Below, piece after piece: positions 9,650-59,502 of a stretch of DNA of 64,000 nt. A program made the position numbers and the translations under genes. A model generated the notes under the pieces. That model was given only the letters and a program-made list of their open reading frames with translations. It ran no database searches and had not been told where the DNA came from. The stretch is from Porphyridium purpureum (Eukaryota; Rhodophyta; Bangiophyceae; Porphyridiales; Porphyridiaceae): positions 2,046,001 through 2,110,000 of the forward strand of contig VRMN01000002.1 of assembly GCA_008690995.1 (NCBI GenBank), read 5' to 3'. Position 1 is the first letter of the stretch. Every line of letters begins with the position of its first letter.

Positions 9650-9724
9650 CACTGTACGTTCCGTGCTCGGTTCAGACCAAGTACAGTGCGTACAGTGAGT
9701 AGACTGGGTACAGTGTGTACAGTG
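9650..9724. promoter_or_regulatory. Cluster of five GTACAGTG/CACTGTAC boxes in a divergent promoter
   Basis: CACTGTAC lies at 9650-9657 and GTACAGTG at 9681-9688, 9690-9697, 9708-9715 and 9717-9724. Near matches occur at 9597 and 9634. The cluster sits between the EF-hand gene (-) and the NDUFB4-like gene (+). The same octamer is found upstream of other genes in this window, so I infer a general promoter element or factor site. Confidence 0.6.
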
Positions 9725-9975
9725 AATGAGGAAGCGGAAACGCGCTGGGGGGAACCGGGGAGGTGGGTGTGGAGGAGCTAGGCTGGTGGGTGGTGTTGGG
9801 GGTGTTGGTGCTGGGTTGTGCCGAGGTAGAGAGGGTGAAGTGGGGTGGGGATTGAAGGGGGTCGGAGCTCGAGCCGGCTTGCACGCGTGTGTCTGCGCGA
9901 GGAGAGGCTTTGGCGTGGAACGGCAGTGCTGTGGAGTTGCGCGCGCAGTCGCAAGGACGCGGATTCGGACTCGCC

Positions 9976-10254
9976 ATGGGCAAGTTCCGCGTCAAGACGA
10001 ATCCGTACATCGAGGACTGGATGGACAGGAGGCTCAACTTTGGCCGGCACTATTTCAAGTGGAATTTGCAGTCGATCGCGGGCATCACGGTCGCGTTGGT
10101 CGTCTTTCCGTACATTCTGTTTCGCGGCATCACCGCGGAAATGGAGTACAAGTTGAAGAACGACAATGGCTTTGCGCGCATGCCGCAGCACCGCTACTTG
10201 GGCGATGGCAGGGGCATCGGCCCAGACTCGTGGGAAAGGAAAGAGAAGTATTAA
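9976..10254 (+). CDS. NDUFB4: Mitochondrial complex I subunit, NDUFB4/B15-like
   Basis: This is a 92-residue accessory subunit of respiratory NADH dehydrogenase. The sequence NPYIEDWMDRRLNFGRHYFK, a single membrane helix (ITVALVVFPYILFRGI) and a short basic tail with a proline-rich end match the plant and green-algal B15/NDUFB4 layout of IEDW, then HNFRW-like, then one helix, then a short tail. The frame extends upstream to an ATG at 9889, but that part looks like leader sequence, and the family begins with M-G-x-x; I chose ATG 9976. It is followed after 146 bases by the ADCK kinase gene on the same strand, which may also act in mitochondria. Confidence 0.82.
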   Translation: MGKFRVKTNPYIEDWMDRRLNFGRHYFKWNLQSIAGITVALVVFPYILFRGITAEMEYKLKNDNGFARMPQHRYLGDGRGIGPDSWERKEKY

Positions 10255-10400
10255 GTGTACGCTAAGGCAAAATAACAGCAGCTCGTTGGTGAATGGGGTT
10301 CCAGGAACGGCAAGAGCACGGGATGCGATAAATAAACTTCTTGCAGGGAAAAATTGAGTGGCCTTTCCTCGCGCGCGCGGCGCTGGATACGCGCCCAACG

Positions 10401-12203
10401 ATGGGCTCCGCAACACAGCAGCGGATACGTGTTTGGGTGACGGGCGCTGCGGCGGTCTCGCTCGCGTCAACGGCCGCAGTGCTGTACCGCGATCGCGACC
10501 CGGCATCGGTGCGGATGGACTGGCCGGTGCCGTTGGAGCTCGCCTACCGGCGCGTGTTTGTGCTGCGCACTGCAGCACAACTATCATGGCGCTTGCTCCG
10601 GTTCCGCCGGGTAGAAGCGGATCTCGACGAACCGCGCGTGGCGCAGTGGCACGCTGAGACGGCCGCGCACTGTGCGCGCGCGTGCTCGCGGCTTGGTGGG
10701 CTGTACGTGAAGCTCGCCCAGGCGATCAGCTCGATGCCGGGCTCGCTGCGCGGTGAGTACATGGACGCGCTGCTACCTTTGACAGATTCGGCGGCATGCT
10801 CGAGCTGGCAGCACGCCAAAATGGCCATCGAGCGTGAGCTGCAGCGCCCACTCGGCGAGCTGTTCAGCCGCGTCGATACCACACCATTGGCCTGCGCGTC
10901 CATTGCACAGACGCATCGCGCGGTGCTTCGATCGGACGAGGGACATCAAGACACAGAGTCGGTAGGGGCGACTGATGCCGCGGACGTGGTCGTCAAGGTG
11001 CAGCACTTCCGCATCAAGGAGCAAATGGTTTCGGACTTGCGCATGTTGCACGCGGTGTTGTGGTGCGCTGGGTTCTGGCGAGACGTGGATAGAAAAGTGC
11101 TACGATTTCTGATCAAGACGCTTGATGGACTTGAACGCGACCTGCTCACCGAACTCGACTTTGTGGCAGAACGCAGCAACGCCGACGCTGTTCGACCCTT
11201 TTTCGAAAAATACGCGGCCAATCAGGTCACCGTCCCGCGAATGTACCCGGCGTACAGCACGGATCGCGTGCTGACGATGGAGCGCATCCCCGGCCGCCGT
11301 ATCGACGATGCTGTGGCCGACATGAGCCCCGAGGAACGTAGGCAAGTCTCTGACGCACTGGCAGAGTGCCTGTCTGTGATGCTGTTCCGGGCTGGCTTAT
11401 TCCACGCTGATCTGCATGCAGCCAATGTTTTTGCCGTACAGGACAGCGCACATGAGCGCGAAGCGCCCACAAGCGACGCGGCGGGGGCCCCGAAGGCACG
11501 CCACTTTCGCATTGCCCTTCTCGATCACGCGCAATATTGTCGCATCGACCGCGACGCACGGCTGCGGATGTGCGAGATGATTGCGAGCACTTCATACTCT
11601 TTTAACGACCACCTGCTCGCGCTGGTTCAAGACAACGATGCCGCTTCGAATGGCTCGCCTGCCGAAAGCAAGCAAGCGCGTCAACCTGGATTTGACGAAC
11701 TTGTTCTAGGAATGATGCTGCGCCCGGAATTTCTACTCCGAGCTGTGCAACTTAGCGCCGAAGAGAGGAGAGCTGTGCGCGAGCACTTGCAGGGGTCGTT
11801 TGCGGTGTTTCTGGATGGCGACCCCAGCGACGTTGCGCTGCGGTCGAGCCGAGCGCGACGGAACGGCGGCGCGGCAGACGATGAGGAGGATGTGCTGCAA
11901 GGCGCGGACACGGACCAGCAGCACCGTGCGCTGGTCCTCATTCGTTCCGTAGCTCTGGGGCACGAGCTGCACAAGCGTGTGGTCGGGGACCGCAAGCAGG
12001 CTCGATTCCAGCGGTCGCTCATCTACGTGTGGGACGCGCTGGACGAGTACCACGCCGGGTACACGTTTCCGCTGGACGCGATTGTGCACCCCGTGGTGTT
12101 CAATCTTCTGTACATCTTCCACTGGTCCAGTCTGCAGCTGCTGGGCCTGAGCCTCGACCGCATGACGCGCGCCGCACCGGCCACGCCATCCGGCTCCTCG
12201 TAG
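10401..12203 (+). CDS. ABC1/UbiB (ADCK1/5-type) atypical kinase
   Basis: This 600-residue protein belongs to the ABC1/ADCK/UbiB atypical kinase family, which supports ubiquinone and lipid metabolism in mitochondria or plastids. The open frame begins at TTG 10341, but the first ATG, 10401, opens a hydrophobic N-terminus (VWVTGAAAVSLASTAAVLY) suitable as an anchor or signal. Visible family parts are YVKLAQAISSMPG (the KxGQ position), TPLACASIAQTHRA (the Ala-rich loop), VVVKVQH (the catalytic Lys), ELDFVAERSNAD, LFHADLHAANVF (the catalytic loop) and IALLDHAQ (the metal-binding Asp). Two signatures deviate: KxGQ reads K-L-A-Q, and the DFG-equivalent is D-H-A where ADCK1/5 usually has D-H-G. Overall it looks nearest ADCK1/5. 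Whether it phosphorylates anything is unknown. Confidence 0.9.
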   Translation: MGSATQQRIRVWVTGAAAVSLASTAAVLYRDRDPASVRMDWPVPLELAYRRVFVLRTAAQLSWRLLRFRRVEADLDEPRVAQWHAETAAHCARACSRLGGLYVKLAQAISSMPGSLRGEYMDALLPLTDSAACSSWQHAKMAIERELQRPLGELFSRVDTTPLACASIAQTHRAVLRSDEGHQDTESVGATDAADVVVKVQHFRIKEQMVSDLRMLHAVLWCAGFWRDVDRKVLRFLIKTLDGLERDLLTELDFVAERSNADAVRPFFEKYAANQVTVPRMYPAYSTDRVLTMERIPGRRIDDAVADMSPEERRQVSDALAECLSVMLFRAGLFHADLHAANVFAVQDSAHEREAPTSDAAGAPKARHFRIALLDHAQYCRIDRDARLRMCEMIASTSYSFNDHLLALVQDNDAASNGSPAESKQARQPGFDELVLGMMLRPEFLLRAVQLSAEERRAVREHLQGSFAVFLDGDPSDVALRSSRARRNGGAADDEEDVLQGADTDQQHRALVLIRSVALGHELHKRVVGDRKQARFQRSLIYVWDALDEYHAGYTFPLDAIVHPVVFNLLYIFHWSSLQLLGLSLDRMTRAAPATPSGSS

Positions 12204-12638
12204 CGCATCGTCCCCACCAACCCGTGCTCCGCCCCCTCGTTTCATTGCGCCACGCGAACGTCCCGCTGTACCTCGCTCGCAAGCATCCTGTACCCACCGT
12301 ACCCACCGTACCCACCGTACCTGCACTGTCCTTTTCTCTGATTTTGCAGCGCAATTCGAACAGAACGAACGAGGGAGGCGCGCGCGCATAGGACGTTGTG
12401 TGTGTGTGCCATCAGGTGGTGTGCACTTTGTAGCAAAACAGGCGTGATTAATGCGAAGTTGACGTTTGGACGCGTTGACCGGCAGAAGCAAAGAAAGAAA
12501 GGAAAGAACGGAGAATGCGAGCGTCAGGAATAGCTGTGGTTGTGAGAGTAAGCGGTGAGGGGGGGGGGGAGAGAAAAAGTGGGGGTGGATGGGAGGATGT
12601 GGAGGTCGGGTGGGGTGGAAAAGGAAGGGGGGGATGGG
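12204..12638. other. Intergenic 435 bp with a 9-bp tandem repeat
   Basis: This separates the ADCK gene from the FRAY kinase on the same strand. It contains three and a half copies of GTACCCACC at 12291-12322 and a purine-rich stretch with a long G run near 12560. The G-rich part is probably the kinase 5' UTR. Nothing coding is supported. Confidence 0.6.
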
Positions 12639-15089
12639 ATGGCGTCGCCGTCGCCGAACCAGCGGAAGATGTACCCGTCTGACGCGCTGCATTACGAGCT
12701 GCGCGAGCAGATTGGACAGGGCAGTACCGCCACGGTGTACCGCGCGTGGTGCGATGCCACCAAGGAGGAGGTCGCCATCAAGGTGTATGATCTCGAGGTG
12801 TTCCAGGCATCGCTCGAGGAAATCGGAAAGGAAATACAGGTCATGTCCCTCTCGTCTCACCCAAACGTGCTCCCGTACTCGGTCTCGTTTGTGCACGGCC
12901 ATGACTTGTGGGTCGTCATGCCGTTGCTCACAGGAGGCTCCGTGCTCTCCCTCGTCAAGAATATGTTCCACAAGGGCCTGGACGAGAACCTCGCGCAATA
13001 CATTTTGCACGAGGCCTTGCGCGGCCTGGAGTACTTTCACAGCCAGGGCCAAATGCACCGCGACATCAAGGCGGGCAATATCTTGCTAGATAGCAAGGGC
13101 AACGTGATGCTCAGCGATTATGGTGTGATGGGATGGATGGTGGAAGGCGGCTTGGAGCGCAAAGTGCGGCAAACGTTTGTGGGCACGCCGTGCTGGATGG
13201 CGCCCGAAGTCATGGAGCAGGTGCACGGCTACGACTACAAGGCAGACATTTGGTCATTCGGGATCACGGCCATTGAAATTGCGCAGGGCAGTGCGCCGTA
13301 CATGAATTACCCACCCATGAAAGTGTTGCTGCTGACTCTGCAGAACCCGCCGCCGTCCCTGGAGCCCCATGCGGCGCAGAAGTACTCCAAGGGTTTCAGA
13401 GAAATGTTGGAGTTCTGCCTGCAAAAGGATCCGAAGAAGCGACCGACTGCAGCACAGATGCTGAGACACAAATATTTCAAGAACGTGCGCAAGCCAGCAA
13501 ATCTGCCGGAGCTTATCAAGCAAATGCCCCCGTTAGGCTCACGAGCCGGTACGCAACGTGGGTTGTACCAGCAACTGCAAAAAGTCGCACAGGGCCAAAA
13601 AAGCGGGATTTGGGATCTGCAGATGAAAGGCCAGGGCTGGGACTTTGACGACGAGAATGATGCGAACGAGGCAGACGAAGACGGCCAGGCCAGCGGTGAG
13701 CAGTCAGCTTCAGAGGGAAGGACACCCAATGACGCGGACAGCAGTTTTGGCTCGTCTGTAACCGCAACGGCGACGGCCACAGCTGGGTTGAGGCAGGTTC
13801 AACGGATAAACTCACAAGATGCGGGAGGTGGCGGCGCGGTACCGACGGACAGGAGTGGCTCTGATGTGCGCGCTTCTGCACCTGGCAACCTGAACATCGC
13901 TGGCGGAACCGCAGCGACAGCACCATCTGCGGCACCAGGTCCAGAACCTGCACCTGCTCACGCTTTAGCTTCGATTCATCCTGTTGTGGTCGTGACTCCT
14001 TCGCTGCCGCCACTGGGACCAGGAGGGACGCCCGCGGCGATTCCTCCGCATGTGCCAGAGCAACTTTCATTCAACGTGAATAATGTCAATGCGAAGGATT
14101 CCGCGGTGACGGATGGAGAAGACAGTTCAAGGAGTGGAGCTGCGTCGAGATCAATTCGAAAAGGCCGCTTTTTCGTGTCGGAAATGAACCTGAATAATCT
14201 GAGTCATTCCGAAAGCGGCACATCGCTGCACAACGCTGCAGCAGAAGGCCGAGAGGTGTTTGCCAATTCAGACGGCAATTTGCGCGCTTTGGAAACGAAA
14301 GCATCTGCGCCCGTGTCGAAACCATCGCCCTTGGTGACTGCGTCAATCACACCATCACATTCAAAATCTGGCGGGCCCTCAGATCCATTGAACCCAAATC
14401 TTGTGGTCGCAGGGAGAACAAAGCCGCAATCGATGGAACGTAAACAAGCAATTTATGCGAATGTGGGTAGCGCTGTGTCGGGTCCGAAGGAAGAGACATA
14501 TTTGCATGGCATACCGATGCACATGGTAGCGGAAAGCAAAAGCGTAGCCGTGGAGCCTGCTCGTAAAAGTCGCTTTGCAGTGAAGACCGTGGTGGATCAA
14601 GAGTACTTCTCGTCGCAGCCGAACACGCCCGATATCTCGGTGCATGGTCGAAAGCGCTTTGTCGTGAAGGATGTACCGGTCGGAGGTGATTCAGAATTGA
14701 CCACCGCGACCTCAACAACGACCACCACGCTTCAAAAGGCCGTGTCGGAACTGACAGGGGCGAGCAAGGACGCGAGCCGTCCGTCGAGTGGTGAGCGTCG
14801 ATCCCGCTTTGAAGTGAAGGATGCTGACACGAACTTGCAGGATACACATGCGTCACATTCGGTCTCGCGACCAGACTTGACTGCGGGCATAGTTGGCGCG
14901 AGCCCCACCGGGAAAATGGACGTGCTCGGCCTGCTCAGCATGTTGAACGATCAGGTTGCGGAGCTCGTTCGCGAGAACCAGCAGTTGCGACACGAGGTGT
15001 ACGTGCTCAGGCAGGAACAGCAGTACTCACACCTTGTGCAAATGGGTGGTAACGCTCCCGCGGGGGCCGGCAGCGGCGGGACACAATAA
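12639..15089 (+). CDS. STE20-family protein kinase, OSR1/SPAK/FRAY type
   Basis: This is an 816-residue serine/threonine kinase. The kinase domain (about residues 18-300) has a Gly loop (IGQGSTATVYRAW), VAIKV, HRDIKAGNILL, the magnesium motif as S-D-Y-G rather than D-F-G, and the T-loop block FVGTPCWMAPEVMEQ, identical to the WNK-activated loop of OSR1/SPAK. The frame opens at GTG 12555; ATG 12639 (MASPSPNQRKMYP) fits best, and ATG 12597 is possible. The long tail is disordered and holds four basic RFxV motifs: RFFV at 14166, RFAV at 14571, RFVV at 14655 and RFEV at 14805. It ends in a coiled coil (LNDQVAELVRENQQLRHEV). I see no clear CCT domain. The family controls ion balance, cell volume and cytoskeleton in animals, and related kinases occur in plants. 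Confidence 0.9.
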   Translation: MASPSPNQRKMYPSDALHYELREQIGQGSTATVYRAWCDATKEEVAIKVYDLEVFQASLEEIGKEIQVMSLSSHPNVLPYSVSFVHGHDLWVVMPLLTGGSVLSLVKNMFHKGLDENLAQYILHEALRGLEYFHSQGQMHRDIKAGNILLDSKGNVMLSDYGVMGWMVEGGLERKVRQTFVGTPCWMAPEVMEQVHGYDYKADIWSFGITAIEIAQGSAPYMNYPPMKVLLLTLQNPPPSLEPHAAQKYSKGFREMLEFCLQKDPKKRPTAAQMLRHKYFKNVRKPANLPELIKQMPPLGSRAGTQRGLYQQLQKVAQGQKSGIWDLQMKGQGWDFDDENDANEADEDGQASGEQSASEGRTPNDADSSFGSSVTATATATAGLRQVQRINSQDAGGGGAVPTDRSGSDVRASAPGNLNIAGGTAATAPSAAPGPEPAPAHALASIHPVVVVTPSLPPLGPGGTPAAIPPHVPEQLSFNVNNVNAKDSAVTDGEDSSRSGAASRSIRKGRFFVSEMNLNNLSHSESGTSLHNAAAEGREVFANSDGNLRALETKASAPVSKPSPLVTASITPSHSKSGGPSDPLNPNLVVAGRTKPQSMERKQAIYANVGSAVSGPKEETYLHGIPMHMVAESKSVAVEPARKSRFAVKTVVDQEYFSSQPNTPDISVHGRKRFVVKDVPVGGDSELTTATSTTTTTLQKAVSELTGASKDASRPSSGERRSRFEVKDADTNLQDTHASHSVSRPDLTAGIVGASPTGKMDVLGLLSMLNDQVAELVRENQQLRHEVYVLRQEQQYSHLVQMGGNAPAGAGSGGTQ

Positions 15090-15186
15090 AACTTTGATAA
15101 CTCGTGCCGTCATTCTAAATGTATCTTGTCCAAGAGAAATAGATTTCTCAGCAAGCGACCATCACATTAAGGCTTCGCTCTTGTAC

Positions 15187-16545: not shown

Positions 16546-16719
16546 ATGTCTGCTTGTTGCTCGCGTCCTTCAATTGAAAAGCGTCACGCAGTTCATAAGC
16601 AAACGTATGTATTTTAGTATGTACAGGCGCTGGCATTGGGGGTTCGGGTGTTTGGTGTGAAGGTTGAGCAGAAGGCGCGCCAGAAGCAACTGCATGTCTG
16701 ACGGAGCGCCTAATCAATC

Positions 16720-19700
16720 ATGTACAAACCGGTCGGCGGCGGCGGCCGCAGCGATGGTCATGGTGGCGCCGAGGACCGTCCGCCATTGTTGCAGGCCGGG
16801 GATTCAGGGAGTGATGAGGACGCGGCGTGGGGCGGGCTGGTGAGCAGTACAACGGCCGCGGCGTTGGATGAGAAGGCCGCAACGCATGGGCACACAGTCT
16901 CTTACGCACCTTCGTCGTCCACTTTCATTGCCGAAGGAGGGGCTTCTGGGGGGAGCAGAAATGGTGGCCGTGAATCTGACGGATACACACGTCGCGAGGC
17001 AGGGATGCAGAAGTTTCCTGACGCGGCGCCGTCGTTCCCTGATCAGGCCGCCGTGCATAGCACGGCTATGCCCGTGGGCGAGTACTCATCCCGTGCGGGA
17101 AGTAGCAGTCGTGTCATCGATCTGTTTGTCCGGGTTCGCAACTGGCTTTCGCGCTGGATTCGGCAGCCAATCTTTTGGGTCGCTTTGGTGCTAGCAATAG
17201 GACTGATTGTGGTTGTCACGCATGCGAGTGGGAAGCGGCCTGCTTATTCGACCCCGGGGCCAGGCATTGCGAGTGGTCCAGGAGGTGTTGGCGATGAGGG
17301 TAACGAGTATGACATCGCAGGGATAGGTGGTCTCGGCGGCGGCGCGTCTCCTCGAGGTATCCCGCTGTCTGGATTTACGGTAACGGAGGGGATGATCTAT
17401 GTACTGAAACCAAAGCCCGGTGCACTAGGAATGGGAACAAGTGTTAAACTTGGAGTGCCGCGTTCGTTTTTGAATGTGCCCTTCATCGTCACTGTTATAT
17501 TCACGCGTGCAGATGCACAGTCTACGCTCCTACATATGCCCGGCTCCGAGTACGAGAACAATTGGTTTGCATTTCGCTTGAGCGAGGATGAAACGGCGTT
17601 AGAATTGTACCAGCCATCGTTCAATGTGCGCGTGGCTTCGCAAGGCTCGGAGCTTGAGGAGGCGTACAAAGAGGGCGTTGCGCGAGGGGCGCTCGTCAAA
17701 TTTGGCACGGCACAGGCCGAAGGATTTGATGGCTACATCATTGATTCCGACGAGTACATGGCGTACGGCTTTCTTGTCTTCCCGCACCTGCGGATGATGT
17801 CGCCAGATTTTGTGGATGTGCTCGTGTTTGAGCGCAATCTGAACATGCAGTATGACGTCACGGTGTCCGACCAGTCTGGCTCTGGTTCTCAAGCGTACGC
17901 GCGCCTGCAATTCTCGCTTATTCAGTTGCCCGATAGTGGAAAGCTAATGAAAGCACGCCCAGCCGACTCACGCATCGGGTATTTCACACAGAGCTACTTC
18001 ATGCTTGATACACCGACGGTCAGGCATCGGAGAAAGGATATTATCCACCGCTGGAATCTCCGATCGGCAAACGGTAGATCAGAAATTGTGTATTACATAG
18101 ACCCAACGGTCCCGGAGGCGTATCGTGCGACGGTAAAGGCCGGTATTGAGGCGTGGAACAAGGCTCTTGAGGCCGCTGGATTGTCGGACCACGAGGAAGT
18201 GGAGAAAATCATTCGCGCGGTTTCTCCGGGTGACGCAGATTGGCCGCAAGACTATCATCCGGGAGATGTCAAATACAGTTCCATTTCGTGGGCTCCGTCC
18301 CTCTATGAGACATTTGCACTCGGTCCGTCTGACAGCGATCCGCGTACTGGCGAAATTTTGCAGGCCGATATTGTCTTTACTCACAGTTGGATTCGCGCGT
18401 GGTATTCCGAGTTCGAGACATTCCTTGGCATGGACGATTGGATTGCGGATGTTGATGATACGGATCGCGCGGCAGCGTCCGATGGCCACTCTACCTTCGA
18501 CTTCATTTCATCACGGATTCGGCATGCGTTTGGAGGCGCAAGTTCTGTACCCAATGCGCGCAGAAACTCTGGTGACGGATCAGAATGGCCACAGGATTAT
18601 GGATTTGCATCACTCTCGGAAATGAATGGCAAAGCTCAAGCGCAGACTTTACCACTGTCAGGAATGAAACCAGAGCGAGCGCGGCAAGTGCAGACTTTTC
18701 GTGCCGTTGATGATTCAGAACTGGATATTCATTTTGTGCGGCACTTGGGATCTCTCGCCAGGCATCATGCACACCAAGAGATGGTGCGGTCGCTACTAGA
18801 ATCCAACGGCTCAGTCTTTCTCTCTGAATACAGGATGCGAGCTGTCGAAAAGTTTGATGAGTTCATGCATGCCGCGCTGAAGGCGGTGGTAATGCACGAA
18901 GTTGGCCACACGTTAGGCCTACGTCACAACTTTCGGGCTTCAGCAAACACACCATGGGCCCAGCTGTCGAACGCCTCGTACGTGGCCGAGCATGGCATTT
19001 GTACGAGTGTGATGGACTACATTGCGTTGCATGTGCAAGCCGACCCTGCACGCCAAACTGAGTATTTCATGACAGTCATTGGCGACTATGATATTGCGGC
19101 CATCAAGTACGGCTATGCGCACCCGGATACTGGCACCCGGCAAGAGCTGGAGGATTTCGCGCGTCACACCGTTGAAAGCGGCTTACTTTTCATGACCGAT
19201 GAAGACGATCCTTCGGTGATGGGTGAGGATCCCTTCTCGAGCACATTTGATCTCAGCGATGACCTTGTTGCGTTTGCAGAAAACCAGTTAGAGTTGGCCG
19301 AGAAGCTTCTCGCGCATCTTCTAGAACGCGCCAGTGTCATGAATGAGCGGTATACGGATGTCACAACAGACTTCATGACAATACACAAGAGTGTGTTGCG
19401 GAGCCTCGATTACGTGGTGAAGCTCATTGGTGGAGTCGAATCTGTGCGGTTTCGCGCACAATCTGGCAAGGAGCCAAAGGCTGCAGTTGACGCGGTGACT
19501 GAGCGCGCCGCTGTGGAGCTCTTGCTTCGCGTGCTGAACCCAGTCGACGGCTTCTTGGGGGTGAAGAGCATGTCTCGATTCGCACCTTTCCTGGTGCAAG
19601 AGTTTGGGAGCTGTGACGCCGGCGCCAGTGCATGCTTTGGCTTCCAGTCGGTCAGTGCGTTGGACATCGCGCGGTCGTTCCGATTTGGCCTCTTTCAAAA

Positions 19701-20211
19701 GCTTCTGCATCCCCTTCGCATCGAGCGTATGCAGCGAAACCTGCTGCTACGCATGTCGGCGTCGCGGCCAGACGCGGGTAGCAGCCAGACGCTTGTCAAG
19801 CCGTTACATGCGCTCGAGATCTTCCACCGCGTCGGCGATGTCTTTTTCAAATCTCTTCTGGAAGCCCGGCAGTATGAGCGAGACGACGCACAGACCGCTC
19901 GTACACAGGATATCAACGAGACCGAGCTTGAGGCGCTGGCATACGCGCACGCGCGGATGGACTGGGTCGATTGGCTTTACCTAATGCTGGAGACTGGGTT
20001 GAACATACAGCCTGGATACATCAAGTCGCCTCTATCAGCGGAGCTCACGCGCCTCAGCGACATAGTGGCGGAGGCAGGCACGCACTATCGAACATCCGCG
20101 TGCTCGGGCCTTGCTTACTTTGAGTACCCGCTGAGCTCGGCTTGTGCATTGCGTAGTGAACTGTCAGCGCTTTCCTTGAAGCTTGGCGACTTCTTATCTC
20201 CGCATAAGTGA
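16720..20211 (+). CDS. Membrane-anchored metzincin zinc protease (DUF5117/DUF5118-like)
   Basis: This is a 1,163-residue type II membrane protease. About 145 polar, Gly/Ser-rich residues precede a single helix (FWVALVLAIGLIVVVTH, about residues 150-167), so the large C-terminal part should face the lumen or outside. The zinc site is HEVGHTLGLRH (His726, Glu727, His730, His736), and the Met-turn SVMDY has Met765; this is the metzincin arrangement. The HNFRAS extension after the third His and the upstream YYIDPTVPEAYRATVKAGIEAWN block match the large zinc-dependent metalloproteases with DUF5117/DUF5118 that are common in bacteria. The start ATG 16720 is clear. The substrate is unknown; surface or cell-matrix processing is a guess. 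Confidence 0.85.
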   Translation: MYKPVGGGGRSDGHGGAEDRPPLLQAGDSGSDEDAAWGGLVSSTTAAALDEKAATHGHTVSYAPSSSTFIAEGGASGGSRNGGRESDGYTRREAGMQKFPDAAPSFPDQAAVHSTAMPVGEYSSRAGSSSRVIDLFVRVRNWLSRWIRQPIFWVALVLAIGLIVVVTHASGKRPAYSTPGPGIASGPGGVGDEGNEYDIAGIGGLGGGASPRGIPLSGFTVTEGMIYVLKPKPGALGMGTSVKLGVPRSFLNVPFIVTVIFTRADAQSTLLHMPGSEYENNWFAFRLSEDETALELYQPSFNVRVASQGSELEEAYKEGVARGALVKFGTAQAEGFDGYIIDSDEYMAYGFLVFPHLRMMSPDFVDVLVFERNLNMQYDVTVSDQSGSGSQAYARLQFSLIQLPDSGKLMKARPADSRIGYFTQSYFMLDTPTVRHRRKDIIHRWNLRSANGRSEIVYYIDPTVPEAYRATVKAGIEAWNKALEAAGLSDHEEVEKIIRAVSPGDADWPQDYHPGDVKYSSISWAPSLYETFALGPSDSDPRTGEILQADIVFTHSWIRAWYSEFETFLGMDDWIADVDDTDRAAASDGHSTFDFISSRIRHAFGGASSVPNARRNSGDGSEWPQDYGFASLSEMNGKAQAQTLPLSGMKPERARQVQTFRAVDDSELDIHFVRHLGSLARHHAHQEMVRSLLESNGSVFLSEYRMRAVEKFDEFMHAALKAVVMHEVGHTLGLRHNFRASANTPWAQLSNASYVAEHGICTSVMDYIALHVQADPARQTEYFMTVIGDYDIAAIKYGYAHPDTGTRQELEDFARHTVESGLLFMTDEDDPSVMGEDPFSSTFDLSDDLVAFAENQLELAEKLLAHLLERASVMNERYTDVTTDFMTIHKSVLRSLDYVVKLIGGVESVRFRAQSGKEPKAAVDAVTERAAVELLLRVLNPVDGFLGVKSMSRFAPFLVQEFGSCDAGASACFGFQSVSALDIARSFRFGLFQKLLHPLRIERMQRNLLLRMSASRPDAGSSQTLVKPLHALEIFHRVGDVFFKSLLEARQYERDDAQTARTQDINETELEALAYAHARMDWVDWLYLMLETGLNIQPGYIKSPLSAELTRLSDIVAEAGTHYRTSACSGLAYFEYPLSSACALRSELSALSLKLGDFLSPHK

Positions 20212-20304
20212 TCAAAAGCGATGGTGGATGAGTTTGCTGGCATTTCAAAGTGGTTCGGCTACATATACCGACTCGAAGCCAGCTGAAATAAAAGAATGCA
20301 TTTT

Positions 20305-25646: not shown

Positions 25647-25722
25647 CACTGTACCTACCACGCACCGAACTGTACATAGAACAGTACCCCTTAGTACAGT
25701 ATAAGCGAGCTGCGGTACAGTG
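25647..25722. promoter_or_regulatory. GTACAGTG box pair upstream of the ankyrin gene
   Basis: CACTGTAC is at 25647-25654 and GTACAGTG at 25715-25722, with one-mismatch copies near 25669 and 25693. They lie in the 161 bases between the ankyrin start and the stop of the dUTPase gene. Confidence 0.55.
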
Positions 25723-25734
25723 GCGGTCGGTCCA

Positions 25735-27276
25735 CTAGTCGTGGCCCGTGCTGCCAAAGCCGCCGTGTCCGCGCGCGGTGTCGTCAAACATGTGCGGCAC
25801 CTCGCAGATCTGCGCGTGCACCTGGTATCTGAAAATGAGCTGGCAGCAGCGGAAGGGCAGCGGCAGCTCGGGCGCGTCCGGGTCGACCTTGACGAGCGCG
25901 ACGAACAGGTTGCCGTTGTACGACGCGTCGATGATGCCCACGCTGTTCGCCAGCATGTACCCGCTTTTGGACAGCGAGCTGCGCGGCGCCACCTCGCAGT
26001 AGATCCCGTGCTTCATGCGGATGCGGATGCCCGTGTCGTACAGCGTCACGTTGCTGCGCAGCTGCTTGGCCACTTTGATCACCGTCAAGTCGTAGCCCAC
26101 GTCGGACACTTTGGACTTGCTTGGGATGATCGCAGCCGGGTCCGACCGGAATACCTGGCACTCGGGTAAACGTGCCGCCGAGCGAGACAACAGCATCGAC
26201 GCCCATGTGATCCAGCGCAAAAAGTGCTGGTGCTTGCTCTTGAGCACGCGCTCCCCACAGTGCAAATACATGCGTCCCAGCAGATCAATGCAATTGGAAA
26301 AGTGGAACCACACCTCACCGTCGGCCATCACATTATAAGGCACGCCCAGACGGTCTGCGTACGCTCTAGCAAGCGGAGCCAGCCCTGGCTGGAACGCACA
26401 CGCGGGCGTCTCACTGCTTGCTTGGTCTGAAATCTTCCCACACGCGTCGAAGACGCCTCGCATGAAATCATCCACGTGAGCGCGTGCAGGGCAAGCGTCC
26501 AGGGCTTTGAAGAGCTCTGTCATCCAGGCGTCCTTGCCTTGGGCCAAGCCGTCTAGAAGGGCCTTTGAGTCCGAAATGGATTGCAAAAAGGTCGCAAATT
26601 CACCGCGCGAGGGCGCCACGAACTCGTACGCTCCTCCAGCTTGCTGCTGATCGGCGCGCTTCTCTGCGGTGTCTGTGACGCCCGCCTCGGTCACGTGGCT
26701 TGGAAACAACTTGCGAAAGTAGGCCGCGTCTTCGGAAAGCAGAGGAAATGAGCAAGCTTTTGTAGTCTGTACGGGACTGATCGCTGCCGAAACTGCGGCC
26801 CAGCCCATCAGGTAAAACTGATCTGCGGAAGGTAGCTCGCTGAGCGGCAGCTGTCGTGTCTTTCGGCATGGCACGCAGACTGGCTTCAGCCCGTTGTCGA
26901 GCATTTCAAGAGCTTCAACGTACATCATCTGGAAGTTTCCGTCACACTCTTTGGGCTGCGGCGGAGCTGCACCGTTCGCCCCATCTGCGTCTGCGGCCGC
27001 TGCCGTCGCGCAGCGCAGCGTCACATACGCTCTGGACTCCCTATCCAGCGCGGTCACGTTTGTGACAAAACCAGTGTACGCCGTCTGGATCATGTCGACG
27101 AAGCGCGTCTTTGCTGTTTTCGCAGCACTCTGCTGTGTTGTCAATGCCCTCGCACTGCGCTTGGCAAGCACACAGCTTGCACGTGGACCGGTCGCCGTTC
27201 CCTGCCCGCGTCGTGTGACCAAGGAAGACAACCCAGCGACAAACGCTCCACTTGTGCGCTTCATATGCTCACGCAT
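25735..27276 (-). CDS. DUT: dUTPase with N-terminal degenerate LAGLIDADG-like region
   Basis: The C-terminal ~140 residues are a trimeric dUTPase, converting dUTP to dUMP and pyrophosphate. All five motifs are visible: SDVGYDL, APRSSLSKSG, GIIDASYNGNL, RCCQLIF and RGHGGFGSTG. About 340 residues precede it. Two blocks there resemble the paired helices of LAGLIDADG endonucleases (FYLMGWAAVSAAIS; DDFMRGVFDACGKIS), followed by SNCIDLLGRMY and a linker PSKSKVSDVG. I know this order from dUTPase proteins of giant viruses. The first block lacks the acidic residue, so nuclease activity is unlikely. ATG 27417 is possible, but ATG 27276 (MREHMKRTSGAF) gives an Arg/Ser-rich organelle leader and leaves the GTACAGTG box 160 bases upstream; I prefer it. 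The stop is at the Asp after STGH. Confidence 0.88.
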   Translation of the reverse strand: MREHMKRTSGAFVAGLSSLVTRRGQGTATGPRASCVLAKRSARALTTQQSAAKTAKTRFVDMIQTAYTGFVTNVTALDRESRAYVTLRCATAAAADADGANGAAPPQPKECDGNFQMMYVEALEMLDNGLKPVCVPCRKTRQLPLSELPSADQFYLMGWAAVSAAISPVQTTKACSFPLLSEDAAYFRKLFPSHVTEAGVTDTAEKRADQQQAGGAYEFVAPSRGEFATFLQSISDSKALLDGLAQGKDAWMTELFKALDACPARAHVDDFMRGVFDACGKISDQASSETPACAFQPGLAPLARAYADRLGVPYNVMADGEVWFHFSNCIDLLGRMYLHCGERVLKSKHQHFLRWITWASMLLSRSAARLPECQVFRSDPAAIIPSKSKVSDVGYDLTVIKVAKQLRSNVTLYDTGIRIRMKHGIYCEVAPRSSLSKSGYMLANSVGIIDASYNGNLFVALVKVDPDAPELPLPFRCCQLIFRYQVHAQICEVPHMFDDTARGHGGFGSTGHD

Positions 27277-27434
27277 GTCCACGCAGTACGGATAACTCTT
27301 GTGCGCGCGCTTGTGTGTGTGTGTTCGCGTGTTGAGCGCGAACGCTTCGGAACCGGAATCCGCACGCGCGCGCCCAGCCCCTTCCGTCCGCGAGCTGTGC
27401 GCCGCGTTTCGCGCCATGACAAAGTACAGCGCGT

Positions 27435-27445
27435 GTACAGTGTAC
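27435..27445. promoter_or_regulatory. GTACAGTG box upstream of the dUTPase gene
   Basis: GTACAGTGTAC, with an additional GTACAGC just before it. It lies about 160 bases upstream of the preferred dUTPase start, and supports that start over the ATG at 27417. Confidence 0.55.
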
Positions 27446-28516
27446 CTCCACGCTCAAACCGAACACACGCGCCGCAGCGATGGCGCGATCGACGCCGTCC
27501 GGGTTCTCTCCTGTCTGAGCGGTTAAAATGCGTCCCACAGCTTAACGGGCCAGCCGCTAACCGGTGGCCGGAAACCGATAGCCGATAAGCATTCTAACTG
27601 AGTGGTGTGACAGTTGGCGGCGCGTGTCTATTTTAGTCGGCGCCAATCTTGCGCGAGGCTGCAGCAAGGTGTGAGCCGCGCATGGCGCTCGACGCCGAGC
27701 GTGATCCATCCCGCTCGTCGGCGGCAGGGACACTGCGCCGCTGGGGAAGACGCCTCGGCGACATGTCTCGCCCTGACGCGAACGACGCGCGGCGTGGGCT
27801 GCACACTGGCGGAGCGCGCCGAGCAAGCGAGCACGGTGATTGACGCGGCGCGTGCGCAGACCGCGCGCTGTACATGCGCGTGGCCAACAAGGCGGTTTTG
27901 CAATGCAGCGCGATGACGCGGCGCGCTTGTGTTTTTGTCTGATGCCTTTGTCCCGGATCGCAGCTTGTGCGTGCACTGTACGCGAACGACACACGCGGGG
28001 TTTGTGTGTATGTGTGTGTGTGTGTGTGAGAGTTGATGGCGCACGCCGCACCGCAGAACATGACACGCGGTTGATAGAAGGACTGAAGCGGTTTATTCGG
28101 GTTGGTGGGTGTGTATGGTGAGCGTGCGTGGGATAAGGAGGAACTGTAGAAACAACATGAAGAACGTGAGGGCGAGACGGAATGAAGAGGGAGAGAGAGA
28201 GCAGGAGAAGGATTGGGGGGAGAACAGAGAGGGGGGGAACGACGGGTTTGCGGTGGGGTGGGGTGGTTCGAGAAGCGCGTCGATATTGGGGTCTGAGGTA
28301 AGCACGGCGCTTCGTGGCCACGAAGACTGGCCACCGCGTGCGGTCGCGGGTACACGCGACTGCCGGTGCATCCCGCTGCAGAGCATCTGTGGTTCTGGCG
28401 GATTCAGGCAGGCGAAAGGAGAAGTGTCGAGCTCCAGTGCCCCGGTTCTGTCGAGCTACTCGCGGGCTTCGGCAGCCGTGACCCGCGGGTGTCCGGCGGG
28501 TTGCGGCAGGGGAAAT
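27446..28516. other. Divergent upstream region with GT microsatellite
   Basis: This runs between the dUTPase and sulfotransferase starts. It contains CACTGTAC at 27974-27981 and a GT repeat at 28003-28029. Long frames cross it on both strands, but they begin at GTG or TTG and follow the repeat, so I treat it as promoter and 5' UTR. The stretch 28180-28270 is purine-rich. Confidence 0.5.
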
Positions 28517-34661: not shown

Positions 34662-34817
34662 TGCTCCACTCGACTCCGACCCCACCCAACCCACCACTAC
34701 CCATTCCTTCCCACCCCTTCTCTCTCTCTCTCTGTTCTTTACCTCCACACACGAAAAAAAAAAAACCCACGAAGCGCGTGCGCGGCCGCCAGATTACTTG
34801 CGCTCCAACAAAAAAAT

Positions 34818-34938
34818 GAACACCCACTGAACACCCACTGAACACCCACTGAACACCCACTGAACACCCACTGAACACCCACTGAACACCCACTGAACAC
34901 CCACTGAACACCCACTGAACACTCACGGAACACTTGCC
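34818..34938. repeat. 11-bp tandem repeat (GAACACCCACT)n
   Basis: Nine perfect copies of GAACACCCACT (34818-34916) are followed by two degenerate ones. The array lies upstream of the ABC-F gene and 27 bases from a GTACAGTG box. The period is near one helical turn. Confidence 0.95.
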
Positions 34939-34964: not shown

Positions 34965-34972
34965 GTACAGTG
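34965..34972. promoter_or_regulatory. GTACAGTG box
   Basis: A single exact copy lies between the 11-bp repeat array and a possible small plus-strand gene at 35038. It could serve that gene, the ABC-F gene, or both. Confidence 0.45.
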
Positions 34973-41357: not shown

Positions 41358-41365
41358 CACTGTAC
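41358..41365. promoter_or_regulatory. CACTGTAC box upstream of the V-ATPase S1-like gene
   Basis: An exact copy lies 85 bases upstream of the ATG at 41273, in the divergent spacer shared with the COX16-like gene. Confidence 0.5.
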
Positions 41366-45873: not shown

Positions 45874-45930
45874 AAACCCTAAATAACCCTAATATGTACA
45901 GTGACCAAGTACACTTAATATTCACTGTAC
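45874..45930. promoter_or_regulatory. Divergent promoter: telo-box plus inverted GTACAGTGA pair
   Basis: AAACCCTAA is at 45874-45882 and a second CCCTAA near 45887-45892. They are followed by GTACAGTGA (45896-45904) and its exact inverse TCACTGTAC (45922-45930), separated by 17 bases. It lies between the DUF1995 start and the small spliced gene. Confidence 0.6.
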
Positions 45931-46035
45931 CTTGTTCGTGCTAGGGTTGAAAAGTTGGGGGCGGGGGGGAGAGGCTAGTGGTGCGGTTGGATTCGGTGGT
46001 GTGCGACGGGAAAGCGCAAGGTTGCTCGCGGGGGA

Positions 46036-46700
46036 ATGGCAGGTCGGATGTGGTATGCGGTGCGCTCCCGCGCGCACGCGGGAATGTTGCGCGGAGTAAC
46101 ATCCGCATCGGGGTTGGCGGGGAACGCGGCGCCGGGCTTGTATGTGGCTGATGTGCTGCGCGCCAGTCCGTCTCGCACGCTGTGTGGCTCGAGTGTTGCA
46201 GCGTGCAAGCACGCGCGTCTTCCATTCGAAAAGCCGCTGTACGAGTTCCGCGGTCTCGACAGAATGAAGGCTAAGAAGCGCACGGAGAAAACGTAAGTTC
46301 GAAGCTCGCTGAAAATGGCGCGCACACCCATACATTTGCGAAACGGCGTGCGTCCGATATTTTCTCAGTGGGGGGGACCTGCCTCGTCGTTGAGTTTTTT
46401 CCTTCTTCCTGTTGCTCGATTCAGGCGTCGTTGTTGCGGCAGACACGCTGACTGTACGGTTCCTGTGAACGTTTCTATCTGGATTTGTATTCTGACGTCG
46501 GTTTACAACTCTGGTTTCTTCAAACATACTCATGCGATGACGCGCGTTGGCCCCGTCTCGGCCGATTCTGTCCCTTGTGTCTAATCTTTCGACGTGCCAG
46601 GCTTACGTTTTTTGGAGACTGCGTCATGCTGAGTGGCACAGGGATTCTCGCGCTCAAGTGCTACTATGCCATCATAGATGAAGAAGACGGGAGCATTTGA
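46036..46700 (+). CDS. Small single-pass membrane protein, probably mitochondrial (two exons)
   Basis: The protein has 118 residues from exons 46036-46292 and 46601-46700. The donor is the consensus GTAAGT and the acceptor is CGTGCCAG, with CTAAT upstream as a branch point. The joint reads RTEKT|LTFFGDCV. The first 40 residues (MAGRMWYAVRSRAHAGMLRG start) are Arg/Ala-rich without acids, a mitochondrial presequence by type. Then come EKPLYEFRGLDRMKAKKR, one membrane helix (FGDCVMLSGTGILALKCYY) and an acidic end (AIIDEEDGSI). The layout suggests a small respiratory-chain or ATP-synthase accessory subunit, but I recognise no family. Confidence 0.65.
46293..46600 (+). other. Spliceosomal intron (308 nt, phase 2)
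   Basis: GTAAGT donor and CCAG acceptor. Reading through would add a stop three bases into the intron. The intron carries T-rich tracts and a CTAAT branch-like site. Confidence 0.72.
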
Positions 46701-53486: not shown

Positions 53487-53533
53487 CTCGCCCTGATGAC
53501 GACACACCTTTCCCCCCCCCTTCCTCTCCTTCC

Positions 53534-53550
53534 TCTCTCTCTCTCTCTCT
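53534..53550. repeat. (TC)n microsatellite in the MPPB leader
   Basis: A run of TC steps, read as GA on the mRNA strand, in the 5' UTR of the peptidase gene. It makes the ERERERKERK reading of the over-long frame. Confidence 0.8.
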
Positions 53551-53735
53551 ATCCTCTTCATCCCCTCCTCCCCAACGCCGCCAACCGCGTGCCAAAACCG
53601 CACGAAATCATAAAACACACCCATTCTCATAGACATCGAAGAACCGCACGCGTGTCGGAGAAAACGGTCTACGCAAAACGCCCCGTTTTCACAGCACATG
53701 AAGTACAGCGGTGGGTTCTGTTGCTGAACGAGCGT

Positions 53736-53772
53736 GTACAGTTAGTAATAGGTACAGTGATAATTAGGGTTT
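53736..53772. promoter_or_regulatory. Divergent promoter: GTACAGTG and telo-box
   Basis: GTACAGTT at 53736-53743, exact GTACAGTG at 53752-53759, then TTAGGGTTT (AAACCCTAA on the other strand) at 53764-53772. The same two motifs occur together near 45.9 kb. It lies between the processing peptidase and the 4CL-like ligase. Confidence 0.58.
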
Positions 53773-54017
53773 CATTCTTGCGAGCGCGAGCTCCGTTGCT
53801 GCGCGATCCAGCTGAGCCCGCGATACGCTGCGTGAGCAGCAAGTGGTCTGTGTGTGTGTGCTCGAGAGTGTGTGTGCGTGTCCTGAAGAGGAAGAAGAGG
53901 AGTGGAACTCGCTCTGCGGAAAACGGCCTGCAGCGGCGCCAATTTACAGAGAGGTCTCCGAGTGAAGAGATGATTCGCAGTGCGCTCGCGAATTGAAAAT
54001 AGACACGAAACGCACAG

Positions 54018-55649: not shown

Positions 55650-56356
55650 CTGCATGCAGGTATGTAGTGAGGCATGCTGGCCAGTGAAGCAGAACACGCC
55701 ACAGTGAAGGAAATGCACAGGTGCATGCGTGCAGGTGGCCAACTGGGATAATCTTTTCTCGGACGCGCGATTTGCACGACAATCCAAGTGTCCCTTTCGC
55801 GCGTCGGACGCGGTCGCAAAAGCAACGGAAAAAGGAGACTTCCGGAGCGTTCCTGGTACATTGACTGTTCGGGATGATTGCATCGGAACCTGCTGGGAGC
55901 GGGAGGGAGAAGTGCCGAGACACTCAGACGCTAGCATTGAGTGGATTACGTCCGGCCTGAGATCATGACATTCCGTGCATCCTTGTTGTGGGAAGATTAG
56001 TTCTTAAATTTGGTACTGTCTTTGCTCTTGAAGCAAAGATCTTGTACGTCGGAGTAGCGCACGCATGGCGCGCATTGGCACGCAGAAGATACCTTATCGG
56101 GACAGCTGCGCTTCGGCAGATATGCGTTTCCGAACGAATGTGTCGTTTCTTAGTGACAACTGCTCTCACAATGCATGGCTTCCATAAGAACAGAAAAGTT
56201 TTTAAAATAAAAAAGAGAGATGATTCTTGTATACGAGTCATACACGCTTCGTTGACTAGGCGGTTCTGGCGCCCGCAAGCCCTCCCGCAAAGTCTTGGTC
56301 GCGCTTTCCTGGTGGTGTTATTCTGCAGACTAAATACGCATGCCATGTACCCGGCT
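55650..56356. other. Convergent 707 bp spacer
   Basis: It lies between the ligase and hybrid-cluster protein stops. Frames here start at GTG or run into the antisense of the next gene, so none is called. The 56010-56240 part is AT-rich. Nothing recognisable. Confidence 0.5.
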
Positions 56357-58297
56357 TCACTTGCCCTCCAGCATGGCGGCAAGATCCTGCTTCACGTCGC
56401 CGACAGGCATGAGATTGTACTTTTCAACAAGGAGGTTAAGCACATTGGGGGTCAAGAAGGCCGGCAAGCGCGGCCCGAGCCTGATGTTTTGAACACCCAG
56501 GTGCAACAGGGACAGCAGAATAATCGTGGCCTTTTGCTCCAGGTAGCTGAGTGCAAATGACAGGGGCAGACCGTTCACGTCCGTCTTGAAAGCACCGGCA
56601 AGCGCCGCCGCAATTTGAATTGCCGAGTGCGCATCGTTGCACTGGCCGACGTCAAGAAGCCGCGGGATTGCCGTGCCGGGCACGACGCCAAACTCTCTCT
56701 TGTTAAAGCGATACTTTCCGCACGCGAGCGTGAGAATGACACAATCCTCCGGTACTGCTCCGGCAAGTTCAGCGTAATAGTTGCGCTCGCCTTCGGAGCC
56801 GTCACAGCCGCCAATCAAGAAGAAGTGACGAATTTTGCCCTCCTTGACAGCTGAAATCACCTTATCCGCAATGCCCAAAACAGCGTTGTGGCCGAACCCA
56901 GTCGTTGTGTACTGCTCCTTCTCGTCCGCTACAAAACCGTCCATTTCAAGCGCCTGCTGCACGAGAGGTGCAAAGTTGCGGTCTTCCAAGTGGCGGACGC
57001 CGTTGTATCCTACAGCATTGACAGAGTAGATACGGTCGCGGTAGCTCTTGCGCGGCTCCAAGATGCAGTTTGTGGTTACAAGAATCGGTCCTGGAAACGC
57101 CGCAAACTCAATCTTCTGCAGCATCCATGCGCCGCCATAGTTGCCCACCAGATGGGGATACTTTTTCAAGCCCGGATAGCCGTGCGCCGGAAGCAGCTCG
57201 CCGTGTGTGTACACGTTGATGCCCTTGTCCTTTGTTGCTTCCAAGACGGCCTCGAGGTCGCGGAGGTCATGACCAGACACCAACACGCATTTGCCCTTCA
57301 CCGCGGTTGTACGCAGCTTTGTAGGAACTGGCGCGCCGTACCGAGCCGACGCACCGTCACTCAGCAACTCCATGACGCGCAAATTGACCTCACCTGCTTT
57401 CAGACAATAATTCAGCAGTGTGCCCATATCAAATTGTTCGGCGCCCAAGTAACCGAGCATTTCGTACATCTTGTCGAAAACGCTTGGATCTGTCTTTTCC
57501 AGCACCGCGGCGTGCTCTGCGTATGCAATCAGTCCCTTGAGTCCGTACGTGAGCAGCTCCACCAAACTGAAGACATCTGGGTCTGCCGTTTTCAGACCAC
57601 GCTGGAAAAGACCCACCTCGTTGGCCGCCTGTTCAAAGTCGGCACCTGGCGTCCACACAGCCGCGCCTCCGAGCTGCGGAACGGGCTTCTTTGCTGCCTC
57701 AGCCTGTGCCTGGAGTCGCTTTGCCAGCTGTGTGCGCATTTCCAAGGCGCGCTCGATGTATTCGTTCCACCGCGCTGGGTCGAAGTTGACATTGGTGAGT
57801 GTCGCAAAGGTTGCCTCGAGGACGAAGCGCGTTTCCTCGGCGGTAAGCGGCTGATCAGCGCCCAGCTCCTTGAGAGCGACGGCGTACTGTGCAAGCGCCT
57901 TGACCAAATGCAGCGCGACGTCCTGTTGCTTTGCGACTTCGGCGGTCTTTCCGCACACGCCTTCGACCACGCAGCCCGTGCCGTGGAAAGTCTGCTCGCA
58001 CTGGAAGCACGCCATCTGCGGCGTGTGCCGGCCTGTTCCCGCCATTGTCTCAAAAATCGGCAGCGCGTCGGCAAACTTTTCCTGCACGTCGAGTTGCTGG
58101 CCACGCGGCGGCGTGGACGTGATATATCTGTTGCTGCCGCTGGAGCTACTGCGCGCACGGATCGTGTGGCTGCTGGTCGCGGCCGCGGCACGGAGCGCGG
58201 ACGTGCGGATCCTCCCAGAGACTGTGGTTGACGAGGCCACACCACGCGTCGCGCGAAGCAGCGCGGAGGCGCGCAGGACCGAATACGACGACGCCAT
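56357..58297 (-). CDS. HCP: Hybrid-cluster protein (hydroxylamine reductase), mitochondrial leader
   Basis: This 646-residue protein carries an iron-sulfur-oxygen hybrid cluster; family members reduce nitric oxide or hydroxylamine. The frame opens at GTG in a CACCAG repeat that reads as Leu-Val; ATG 58297 (MASSYSVLRASALLRATRGV start) gives an Arg/Ser/Ala leader of about 75 residues, a mitochondrial or plastid presequence. The N-terminal cluster motif is C-x2-C-x8-C-x5-C (CFQCEQTFHGTGCVVEGVC), the class I type. Later ligand regions are EHAAVLEK, TNCILEP, IGGCDGSEGERNY, LTLACGKYRFN and DVGQCNDAHSA. Length and order are complete, so I expect an active enzyme. Confidence 0.95.
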   Translation of the reverse strand: MASSYSVLRASALLRATRGVASSTTVSGRIRTSALRAAAATSSHTIRARSSSSGSNRYITSTPPRGQQLDVQEKFADALPIFETMAGTGRHTPQMACFQCEQTFHGTGCVVEGVCGKTAEVAKQQDVALHLVKALAQYAVALKELGADQPLTAEETRFVLEATFATLTNVNFDPARWNEYIERALEMRTQLAKRLQAQAEAAKKPVPQLGGAAVWTPGADFEQAANEVGLFQRGLKTADPDVFSLVELLTYGLKGLIAYAEHAAVLEKTDPSVFDKMYEMLGYLGAEQFDMGTLLNYCLKAGEVNLRVMELLSDGASARYGAPVPTKLRTTAVKGKCVLVSGHDLRDLEAVLEATKDKGINVYTHGELLPAHGYPGLKKYPHLVGNYGGAWMLQKIEFAAFPGPILVTTNCILEPRKSYRDRIYSVNAVGYNGVRHLEDRNFAPLVQQALEMDGFVADEKEQYTTTGFGHNAVLGIADKVISAVKEGKIRHFFLIGGCDGSEGERNYYAELAGAVPEDCVILTLACGKYRFNKREFGVVPGTAIPRLLDVGQCNDAHSAIQIAAALAGAFKTDVNGLPLSFALSYLEQKATIILLSLLHLGVQNIRLGPRLPAFLTPNVLNLLVEKYNLMPVGDVKQDLAAMLEGK

Positions 58298-58310
58298 TGC
58301 GTGGAAACCG

Positions 58311-58348
58311 ACCAGCACCAGCACCAGCACCAGCACCAGCACCAGCAG
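58311..58348. repeat. (CACCAG)n hexamer repeat upstream of HCP
   Basis: Six copies of a CACCAG unit just 5' of the HCP ATG on its coding strand. Translated it gives the hydrophobic Leu-Val run of the over-long frame. Confidence 0.9.
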
Positions 58349-59467
58349 CAACAGGCGCGGCACTCAGCTTGCTACTTTCAAACCTCCACGCCGTTCCACC
58401 TGGCCCAGCTTGCCGTGCGTTGGGCCGGACGAAGGTCTGCTTAAATAGCTCGAGCCGCGTCCAAGAACACTGTCACGTCGCACAGGCCACGCGGCGCGCC
58501 ACGTCGGCGACTGTGTGCAACCGCGTCGCGCGAGTCACGTCACACATGGCGCGATCGCGGTGCGGGTGCATCCGCGCGCGTATCGGATTGCTCGCTCCAC
58601 GCGCAGTTGCACATCGTTCACACAGATTCACGCCCCACCCGCACACGCAGCGAATCGCGGGCGCGCTCAGCAGCGTATCTCGCGATTCCGATTTTTCGTG
58701 CAAGCGCAAGAATCCACAGTGAGCGCTGTACCGCAGCGGTACCGCGGCGTGTCGCACAAGTCTGCGGGCGGCACGCGTCGACGACGCGATGACGTCGCGG
58801 CGTGGCTCCTTACTGGCGGCGGCCGCGGCGACGACGGCGACGGCGCATGGTGACGTGCCTACATCTTCACTACGTTTATGACCGTACTGATATTCAGAAT
58901 CATAATGATGATGATGCGCCACGTGTTGTAGGTGGCGGGCGATGTAGGTCGCTGCCTCGTTTCGTTCTCGGCGTTGTGCGTGGACATGGTGCGGACACTG
59001 CCCGCCTGCGTCGAGCGCGCCATGCGAACATCCCGCGTGAATGTGTGCGACATGCCACACATACTGGCTGCGCAAGTGCAGGCCTGGCGTGATCTGCGCT
59101 GTGCGCTGCACATTGTAGTAGTGTCGACCCACATACGCGCAACTTGTTCTGCATGCATAGACATGAACGCGCCGACCCAATGCGAAGTGTGTGTGGATAT
59201 GTGGGAAAGATTAATACCGCTGACACGGCGCGTCGCTTCAGAAGACGAACTCACGGCCTCGCTGGCGACGTAGACACGACACTGCCGCCCAACCGCCCGT
59301 CAAATAACGCGGTGTTCAGTTTGGCTGTTCTTCTCAAATGGCAGCGTTTGAACATGAAGCGCGGATTCCGTATGCGCGCCGCGTTACGTGTGCGGCGCGC
59401 GGCCGCACGGCGTGCTTCCACGCGCGCACGTGGCGCATAAACCACACGATTTACTGTACCGCACGCG
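58349..59467. other. 1.1 kb of a divergent spacer, no clear gene
   Basis: Part of the divergent spacer between HCP and the aspartic protease. Long frames cross it (for example minus 58473-59180) but are His/Arg/Cys-rich, unrecognised and GC-driven. An ATG-like TGATGATG run occurs near 58906-58917. No RNA gene was identified. Confidence 0.5.
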
Positions 59468-59502
59468 CCGCCTCACGATAGTGTACAGTGCGCGTGAGGC
59501 GG
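59468..59502. promoter_or_regulatory. GTACAGTG box inside a 10-bp inverted repeat
   Basis: CCGCCTCACG (59468-59477) and CGTGAGGCGG (59493-59502) flank a 15-base spacer that holds GTACAGTG at 59483-59490. A near copy (TACTGTAC) lies at 59452-59459. It is about 330 bases upstream of the aspartic protease start. Confidence 0.6.

Follow-up and report, generated by a model that had tools for sequence, protein, structure and literature searches.

GTACAGT upstream of genes in the red alga Porphyridium purpureum: probable core of a widely used factor-binding site

The yeast proteins Reb1, Abf1 and Rap1 use short, specific sites that lie before many unrelated genes and are independent of orientation. 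In green plants and green algae, SBP-box/CRR1 sites have a GTAC core that is usually preceded by C, and plants also have the telo-box promoter element, AAACCCTA. General regulatory factors (GRFs) help set up nucleosome-depleted regions, as stated in the excerpted text of PMC11069190. Here we describe a short word, GTACAGT, that is concentrated upstream of genes in the red alga Porphyridium purpureum. Our subject is a 64-kb stretch of contig VRMN01000002.1 (positions 2,046,001 to 2,110,000), called the window below, in which a preliminary description had reported the octamer GTACAGTG as shared by many promoters. We consider it likely that GTACAGT is the core of the binding site of an abundant, promoter-occupying, sequence-specific protein that is used in the manner of a GRF.

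The preliminary description listed 15 exact copies of GTACAGTG in the window; all 15 coordinates are exact, and neither strand holds a further copy. Its chance figure of about two is the equal-base value; dinucleotide-shuffled sequence held 0.99 copies on average and at most 4. The copies had been described as non-coding, and all 15 do lie outside called coding sequence, although this occupies 47.6 of the 64 kb. By the window gene calls, each is within 500 bp upstream of the start codon that it faces, with 11 in divergent gaps, 4 in tandem gaps and none in convergent gaps. Six divergent gene pairs carry an octamer, as had been claimed, out of a total that is eight by the present calls and not nine, and copies do stand upstream of the ankyrin (25647 and 25715) and ABC-F (34965) genes. 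The four copies at 9681-9724 stem largely from a single 27-bp tandem duplication that doubled a pair spaced by 9 bp, which leaves about 13 independent sites in the window. The shorter word GTACAGT occurs 22 times in the window, every time in a gap between called genes; the copy at 46451 and the edge of the one at 45923 overlap an open reading frame (45922-46533, minus strand) that was rejected by its coding score and has no Pfam match.

Words were counted across the genome (22,164,627 bases in 46 contigs) with the reversed word as control, and relative to genes in a 204-kb sample with 96 called genes, made up of the window and 14 stretches of 10 kb (the window-free 140 kb) placed at round-number positions on contigs of sufficient length. 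Genome-wide, GTACAGTG occurs 2991 times versus 777 for its reversal, and GTACAGT 6320 times versus 3088. The window is denser than the genome, with 15 octamers versus the ∼8.6 predicted from 2991 in 22.16 Mb. In the sample, GTACAGT was found 58 times in 64.4 kb of non-coding DNA and 7 times in 139.6 kb of coding sequence, and it was present in 12 of 24 divergent gaps, 8 of 26 tandem gaps and 1 of 28 convergent gaps. Between −50 and −400 there were 1.5 to 3.4 copies per kb; in coding sequence beyond +50 the figure fell to 0.0 to 0.07. Within 400 bp upstream, 26 of 82 genes have GTACAGT and 2 have the reversed word (16 and 1, respectively, for the octamer); the 26 are not all independent, since divergent partners can share a site. 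We also followed every fifth of 100 octamer sites listed on contig C1: of these 20 systematic sites, 14 have a called start at most 600 bp downstream, 1 is coding, and 5 fit neither description, one of the last (L019) being in a long terminal repeat (LTR)-like repeat and another 603 bp from a start. The word is thus enriched upstream over both coding and 3′ regions, as expected of a promoter-proximal factor site. The comparisons that the preliminary description had set for its proposal, of upstream enrichment and of density against coding sequence, gave a clear excess and a clear inequality on this sample, and its suggestion of a factor site in wide use within this lineage is supported by the upstream concentration in the window, in the 140 kb elsewhere and at the systematic sites.

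The exact octamer does not capture the natural unit. In DNA up to 400 bp upstream of starts in the 204 kb, GTACAGT leads the 7-mers (43 occurrences versus 1.58 expected); it keeps this rank if every upstream segment contributes a single count, and it leads in the window-free 140 kb as well (13 segments versus 0.93 expected). The best upstream 8-mer is GGTACAGT, and GTACAGTG ranks fifth by segments among 8-mers in the whole 204 kb. At the 58 non-coding sites the flanking bases are A21 C9 G25 T3 at −2, A10 C4 G23 T21 at −1 and A11 C4 G29 T14 at +7, from which follows a wider site R-D-GTACAGT-G, that is, roughly [A/G][not C]GTACAGT[G>A,T]; the reported octamer is a slice of this site. A C at −1 removes the enrichment, since the C-preceded word CGTACAGTG occurs 251 times genome-wide versus 225 for its control. 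The AGT after GTAC is needed as well, one-base variants being much weaker (non-coding/coding counts of 17/7 for GTTCAGT, 16/9 for GTACACT and 33/24 for GTACAGC versus 58/7 for GTACAGT).

Two extensions of the motif were rejected. With the three best one-base variants included, coverage rose from 26 to only 30 of 82 genes, and that of the control from 2 to 13. The octamer as half of the palindrome CACTGTACAGTG was found at just 2 places genome-wide (control, 4), so the full palindrome is not enriched.

The preliminary description had also offered a core promoter element. Such an element (an initiator, a TATA-like or a downstream element) would place the transcription start, and the word does lie upstream of many genes of mixed function, mostly 100 to 300 bp before the start codon, a range in which transcription could begin. 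However, among sites that face one gene only, 15 in the 204 kb share the direction of the gene and 13 oppose it, and a further 18 on contig C1 divide 7 to 11. This neutral strand use is that of a promoter-proximal factor site and not the fixed strand of a core element. The positions are broad (about −50 to −400), a promoter often has several copies and may have up to seven, close pairs are preferred, and about two thirds of genes lack the word. We therefore do not retain the core element, which appears very unlikely; a factor-binding site suits the data better. The same combination of neutral orientation, broad positions and multiple copies argues against an RNA element of 5′ leaders acting in translation or stability. 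The sites are near enough to start codons to fall within leaders, but a strand-neutral word that is frequent in gaps common to divergent genes makes this explanation extremely improbable.

Close pairs of GTACAGT set limits on how the sites can be packed. Genome-wide, pairs no more than 30 bp apart number 890 in direct, 245 in face-to-face and 303 in back-to-back arrangement, versus 10, 4 and 1 for the reversed controls. Direct pairs are in excess, because random orientation predicts 2:1:1. Back-to-back pairs with gaps of 0 to 4 were found at 4 places, all with gap 4, versus ∼39 at gaps of 0 to 3 predicted by an even spread of the 303 pairs over 31 gaps. Gap distributions were taken from the matches listed (100 of 890 direct, 50 of 245 face-to-face and 50 of 303 back-to-back pairs, some repeat copies included). 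Among these matches, none of the 100 direct pairs has a gap of 0 or 1 and gap 2 is commonest (17), and the face-to-face pairs peak at gaps of 3 to 5 (22 of 50) with a smallest gap of 1. A chi-square test on the gap distributions, which treats pairs as independent and includes some repeat copies, gave p = 2e-19. The exclusion of the shortest gaps looks like a protein footprint. Most simply, the limits would reflect a protein requiring roughly two further bases beyond the GTAC end of the word and roughly one beyond the opposite end; the flank preferences, established independently, are consistent with this.

The word could alternatively be a side effect of repeats or base composition (a spread mobile element, a microsatellite, biased mutation), and one LTR-like repeat family does bear GTACAGT, as do some arrays with a 9-bp period. 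The wider evidence leaves this explanation with almost no probability. The 58 non-coding sites show a base preference only within about two bases of the core; flanking sequence is not common to the copies as in relics of a mobile element, the minority in the one repeat family apart. No comparable excess is seen for the reversed word, one-base variants fall far short of the core (non-coding to coding ratio of 4.9 at best), and the top rank survives the counting of each upstream segment once.

The repeats were also followed in their own right. The site L019 (G000 C1:365925-367924), which has no surrounding genes, lies in a ∼230-bp repeat with 20 further copies at 98 to 99% identity. Eight pairs of copies stand ∼6.4 kb apart, which at this identity suggests young LTR retrotransposons. 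At least five copies among the matches listed (one on C1 and four on C2) bear a back-to-back GTACAGT pair, as if the element used the host's promoter word. A minisatellite at 34817-34933, upstream of the ABC-F-like gene, consists of 10.6 copies of TGAACACCCAC, and runs with the same 11-bp spacing occur on contigs C20, C38 and C43. Another upstream word, GTGGGTGTTC, had a high initial rank and proved to be mostly 11-bp minisatellite.

A word that stands upstream of about a third of the sampled genes, often grouped and in either direction, is likely the site of a widely used regulator. The putative protein would occupy promoters at ∼50 to 400 bp before the start codon, whichever way the site points, often with several molecules side by side on one promoter, and one factor family would serve all of the sites. 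Once bound, it would probably open promoter chromatin or recruit the transcription machinery. Its target set would be large and functionally mixed, in the manner of the yeast GRFs. Several observations weigh against this account. The motif is not universal, since 56 of 82 genes have no GTACAGT within 400 bp upstream. In the window-free 140 kb, GTACAGTG itself is weak: it is outside the top eight 8-mers and occurs 6 times in divergent, 2 times in tandem and 2 times in convergent gaps and 2 times in coding sequence, the signal there being carried by GTACAGT and GGTACAGT rather than by the octamer. Some GTACAGT sites lie within mobile repeats, and part of the direct-pair excess may come from tandem duplication. 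Finally, genes were called with our own codon-usage script, which models no introns, so that start codons may be off.

GTACAGT resembles yeast GRF sites as a short, specific word before many unrelated genes in either orientation. It differs from them in its sequence and in forming strong homotypic clusters, and its chromatin role would be a putative one. Homotypic clusters of factor sites in general likewise have several copies within tens of bases in mixed orientation; unlike these, in the alga one word dominates the genome's promoters and is first among 7-mers. The genes downstream are many and unrelated in function, as before GRF sites. By inspection of Pfam matches (38 proteins scanned, with the genes of L001-L014 left out), the motif genes look functionally mixed, with no single pathway apparent: those in the window are given in Table 1, and site neighbors on C1 include ribosomal protein L44, pyruvate kinase, a NOP9-like protein, a RING protein and a kinase.

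This mixture bears on a condition-specific regulator with a large regulon, responding for instance to light, nutrients or copper, as an SBP-like GTAC-binding factor might. The GTAC core is shared with SBP-box/CRR1 sites, as is the promoter location, and one third of genes would fit a large regulon. Ten phycobilisome linker genes were found, and both of those opened on C1 have two upstream sites (193 to 221 and 236 to 376 bp upstream), having been chosen because listed sites were already close by. One of the linkers, L036, is identical at 252 of 252 residues to chain 7ezx_MC, from an entry (7EZX) that we take to be the phycobilisome of P. purpureum. The match makes P. purpureum the very probable host and bears out the red-algal origin guessed in the preliminary description. 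Yet the gene functions appear mixed, and SBP in particular is a poor fit: unlike SBP-box sites, the alga's word disfavors C before GTAC, the sole base that abolishes enrichment, and needs AGT after it. Table 3 of PMC4827209, in the excerpt available, gives an SBP count of 0 for P. purpureum; our search of the genome with PF03110 gave no match, as did the control genomes, so that it had no positive control. We set an SBP factor aside and regard a condition-specific regulator as unlikely.

For the GRF-like protein, C2H2 zinc fingers are a candidate class only; they make up 30.2% of the predicted factors of P. purpureum in the excerpted part of PMC4827209. As a tentative proposal, which we hold to be possible rather than probable, a lineage-specific GRF of mesophilic red algae, perhaps a member of the expanded C2H2 zinc-finger set, may organize promoters at a third of genes or more through monomeric RDGTACAGTG sites in cooperating clusters, a promoter code for which plants, animals and fungi offer no known parallel.

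The telo-box is likewise a short promoter word; its sequence differs from GTACAGT, so it could be at most a partner. Of 9 cases of the telomere-like word AACCCTA in the 204 kb, 5 stand no more than 60 bp from GTACAGT, at three promoters (window 45875-45948 and 53765-53771; L003 5791), versus 0 of 13 for the reversed control. On these small numbers, AACCCTA may be a telo-box-like partner of GTACAGT.

Pervasive factor sites are a familiar kind of element; in the open-licence full texts searched, we found no description of this one by its sequence or for this lineage. That literature yielded no nuclear promoter motif for P. purpureum, no paper with GTACAGTG as a whole word and none with GTACAGT together with "promoter." A dominant word is a direct handle on nuclear gene control in red algae, and it offers a route to the identity of the factor by DNA pull-down. 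It is also a part for better transgene promoters in P. purpureum, in which, according to the excerpted text of PMC6110788, transformation with a CaMV 35S cassette yielded no resistant colonies and tubulin signals were functional.

Table 1. GTACAGT and GTACAGTG (octamer) sites in the window and the genes beside them
Feature	Coordinates	Strand	Context
Seven GTACAGT (9599+, 9626-, 9651-, 9681+, 9690+, 9708+, 9717+), five of them full octamers	9599..9724	mixed	Divergent promoter of EF-hand gene (-, start 9516) and ABC1-kinase gene (+, start 10401)
Four GTACAGT (25648-, 25669-, 25694+, 25715+)	25647..25722	mixed	73 to 141 bp upstream of ankyrin-repeat gene (-, start 25573)
Octamer	27435..27442	+	17 bp upstream of gene with C-terminal dUTPase domain (-, start 27417)
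Octamer	27974..27981	-	133 bp upstream of 1145-residue gene without Pfam match (+, start 28115)
Octamer	34965..34972	+	303 bp upstream of ABC-F-like ATPase gene (-, called start 34661); adjoins 11-bp minisatellite
Octamer	41358..41365	-	84 bp upstream of Ac45/VOA1 transmembrane-domain gene (-, start 41273)
Face-to-face pair (45896+, 45923-)	45896..45930		123 and 150 bp upstream of DUF1995 gene (-, start 45772); AACCCTA words on its flanks
Single GTACAGT	46451..46457	-	Shares divergent gap with 45896/45923 pair; within unaccepted open reading frame
Direct pair (53736, 53752)	53736..53759	+	52 bp upstream of M16 peptidase gene (-, start 53699) and 258 bp upstream of AMP-binding enzyme gene (+, start 54018)
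Back-to-back pair (59453-, 59483+)	59453..59490		342 bp upstream of aspartyl protease gene (+, start 59833)

Some further features of the window were recorded. In the 560-residue protein encoded at 25735-27417 (minus strand), the dUTPase domain covers only residues 429 to 558, and the remainder has no Pfam match. A search for tRNA genes across the window found none. Just downstream of the ABC1-kinase open reading frame, positions 12290-12321 hold a short, perfect 9-bp tandem array of 3.6 copies of GTACCCACC. A large Met-zincin protein with DUF4953 and DUF5117 (16720-20211, plus strand) adjoins an actin-family gene, and a nuclear gene at 56357-58297 (minus strand) encodes a prismane/hybrid-cluster family protein (PF03063, E = 7e-147).

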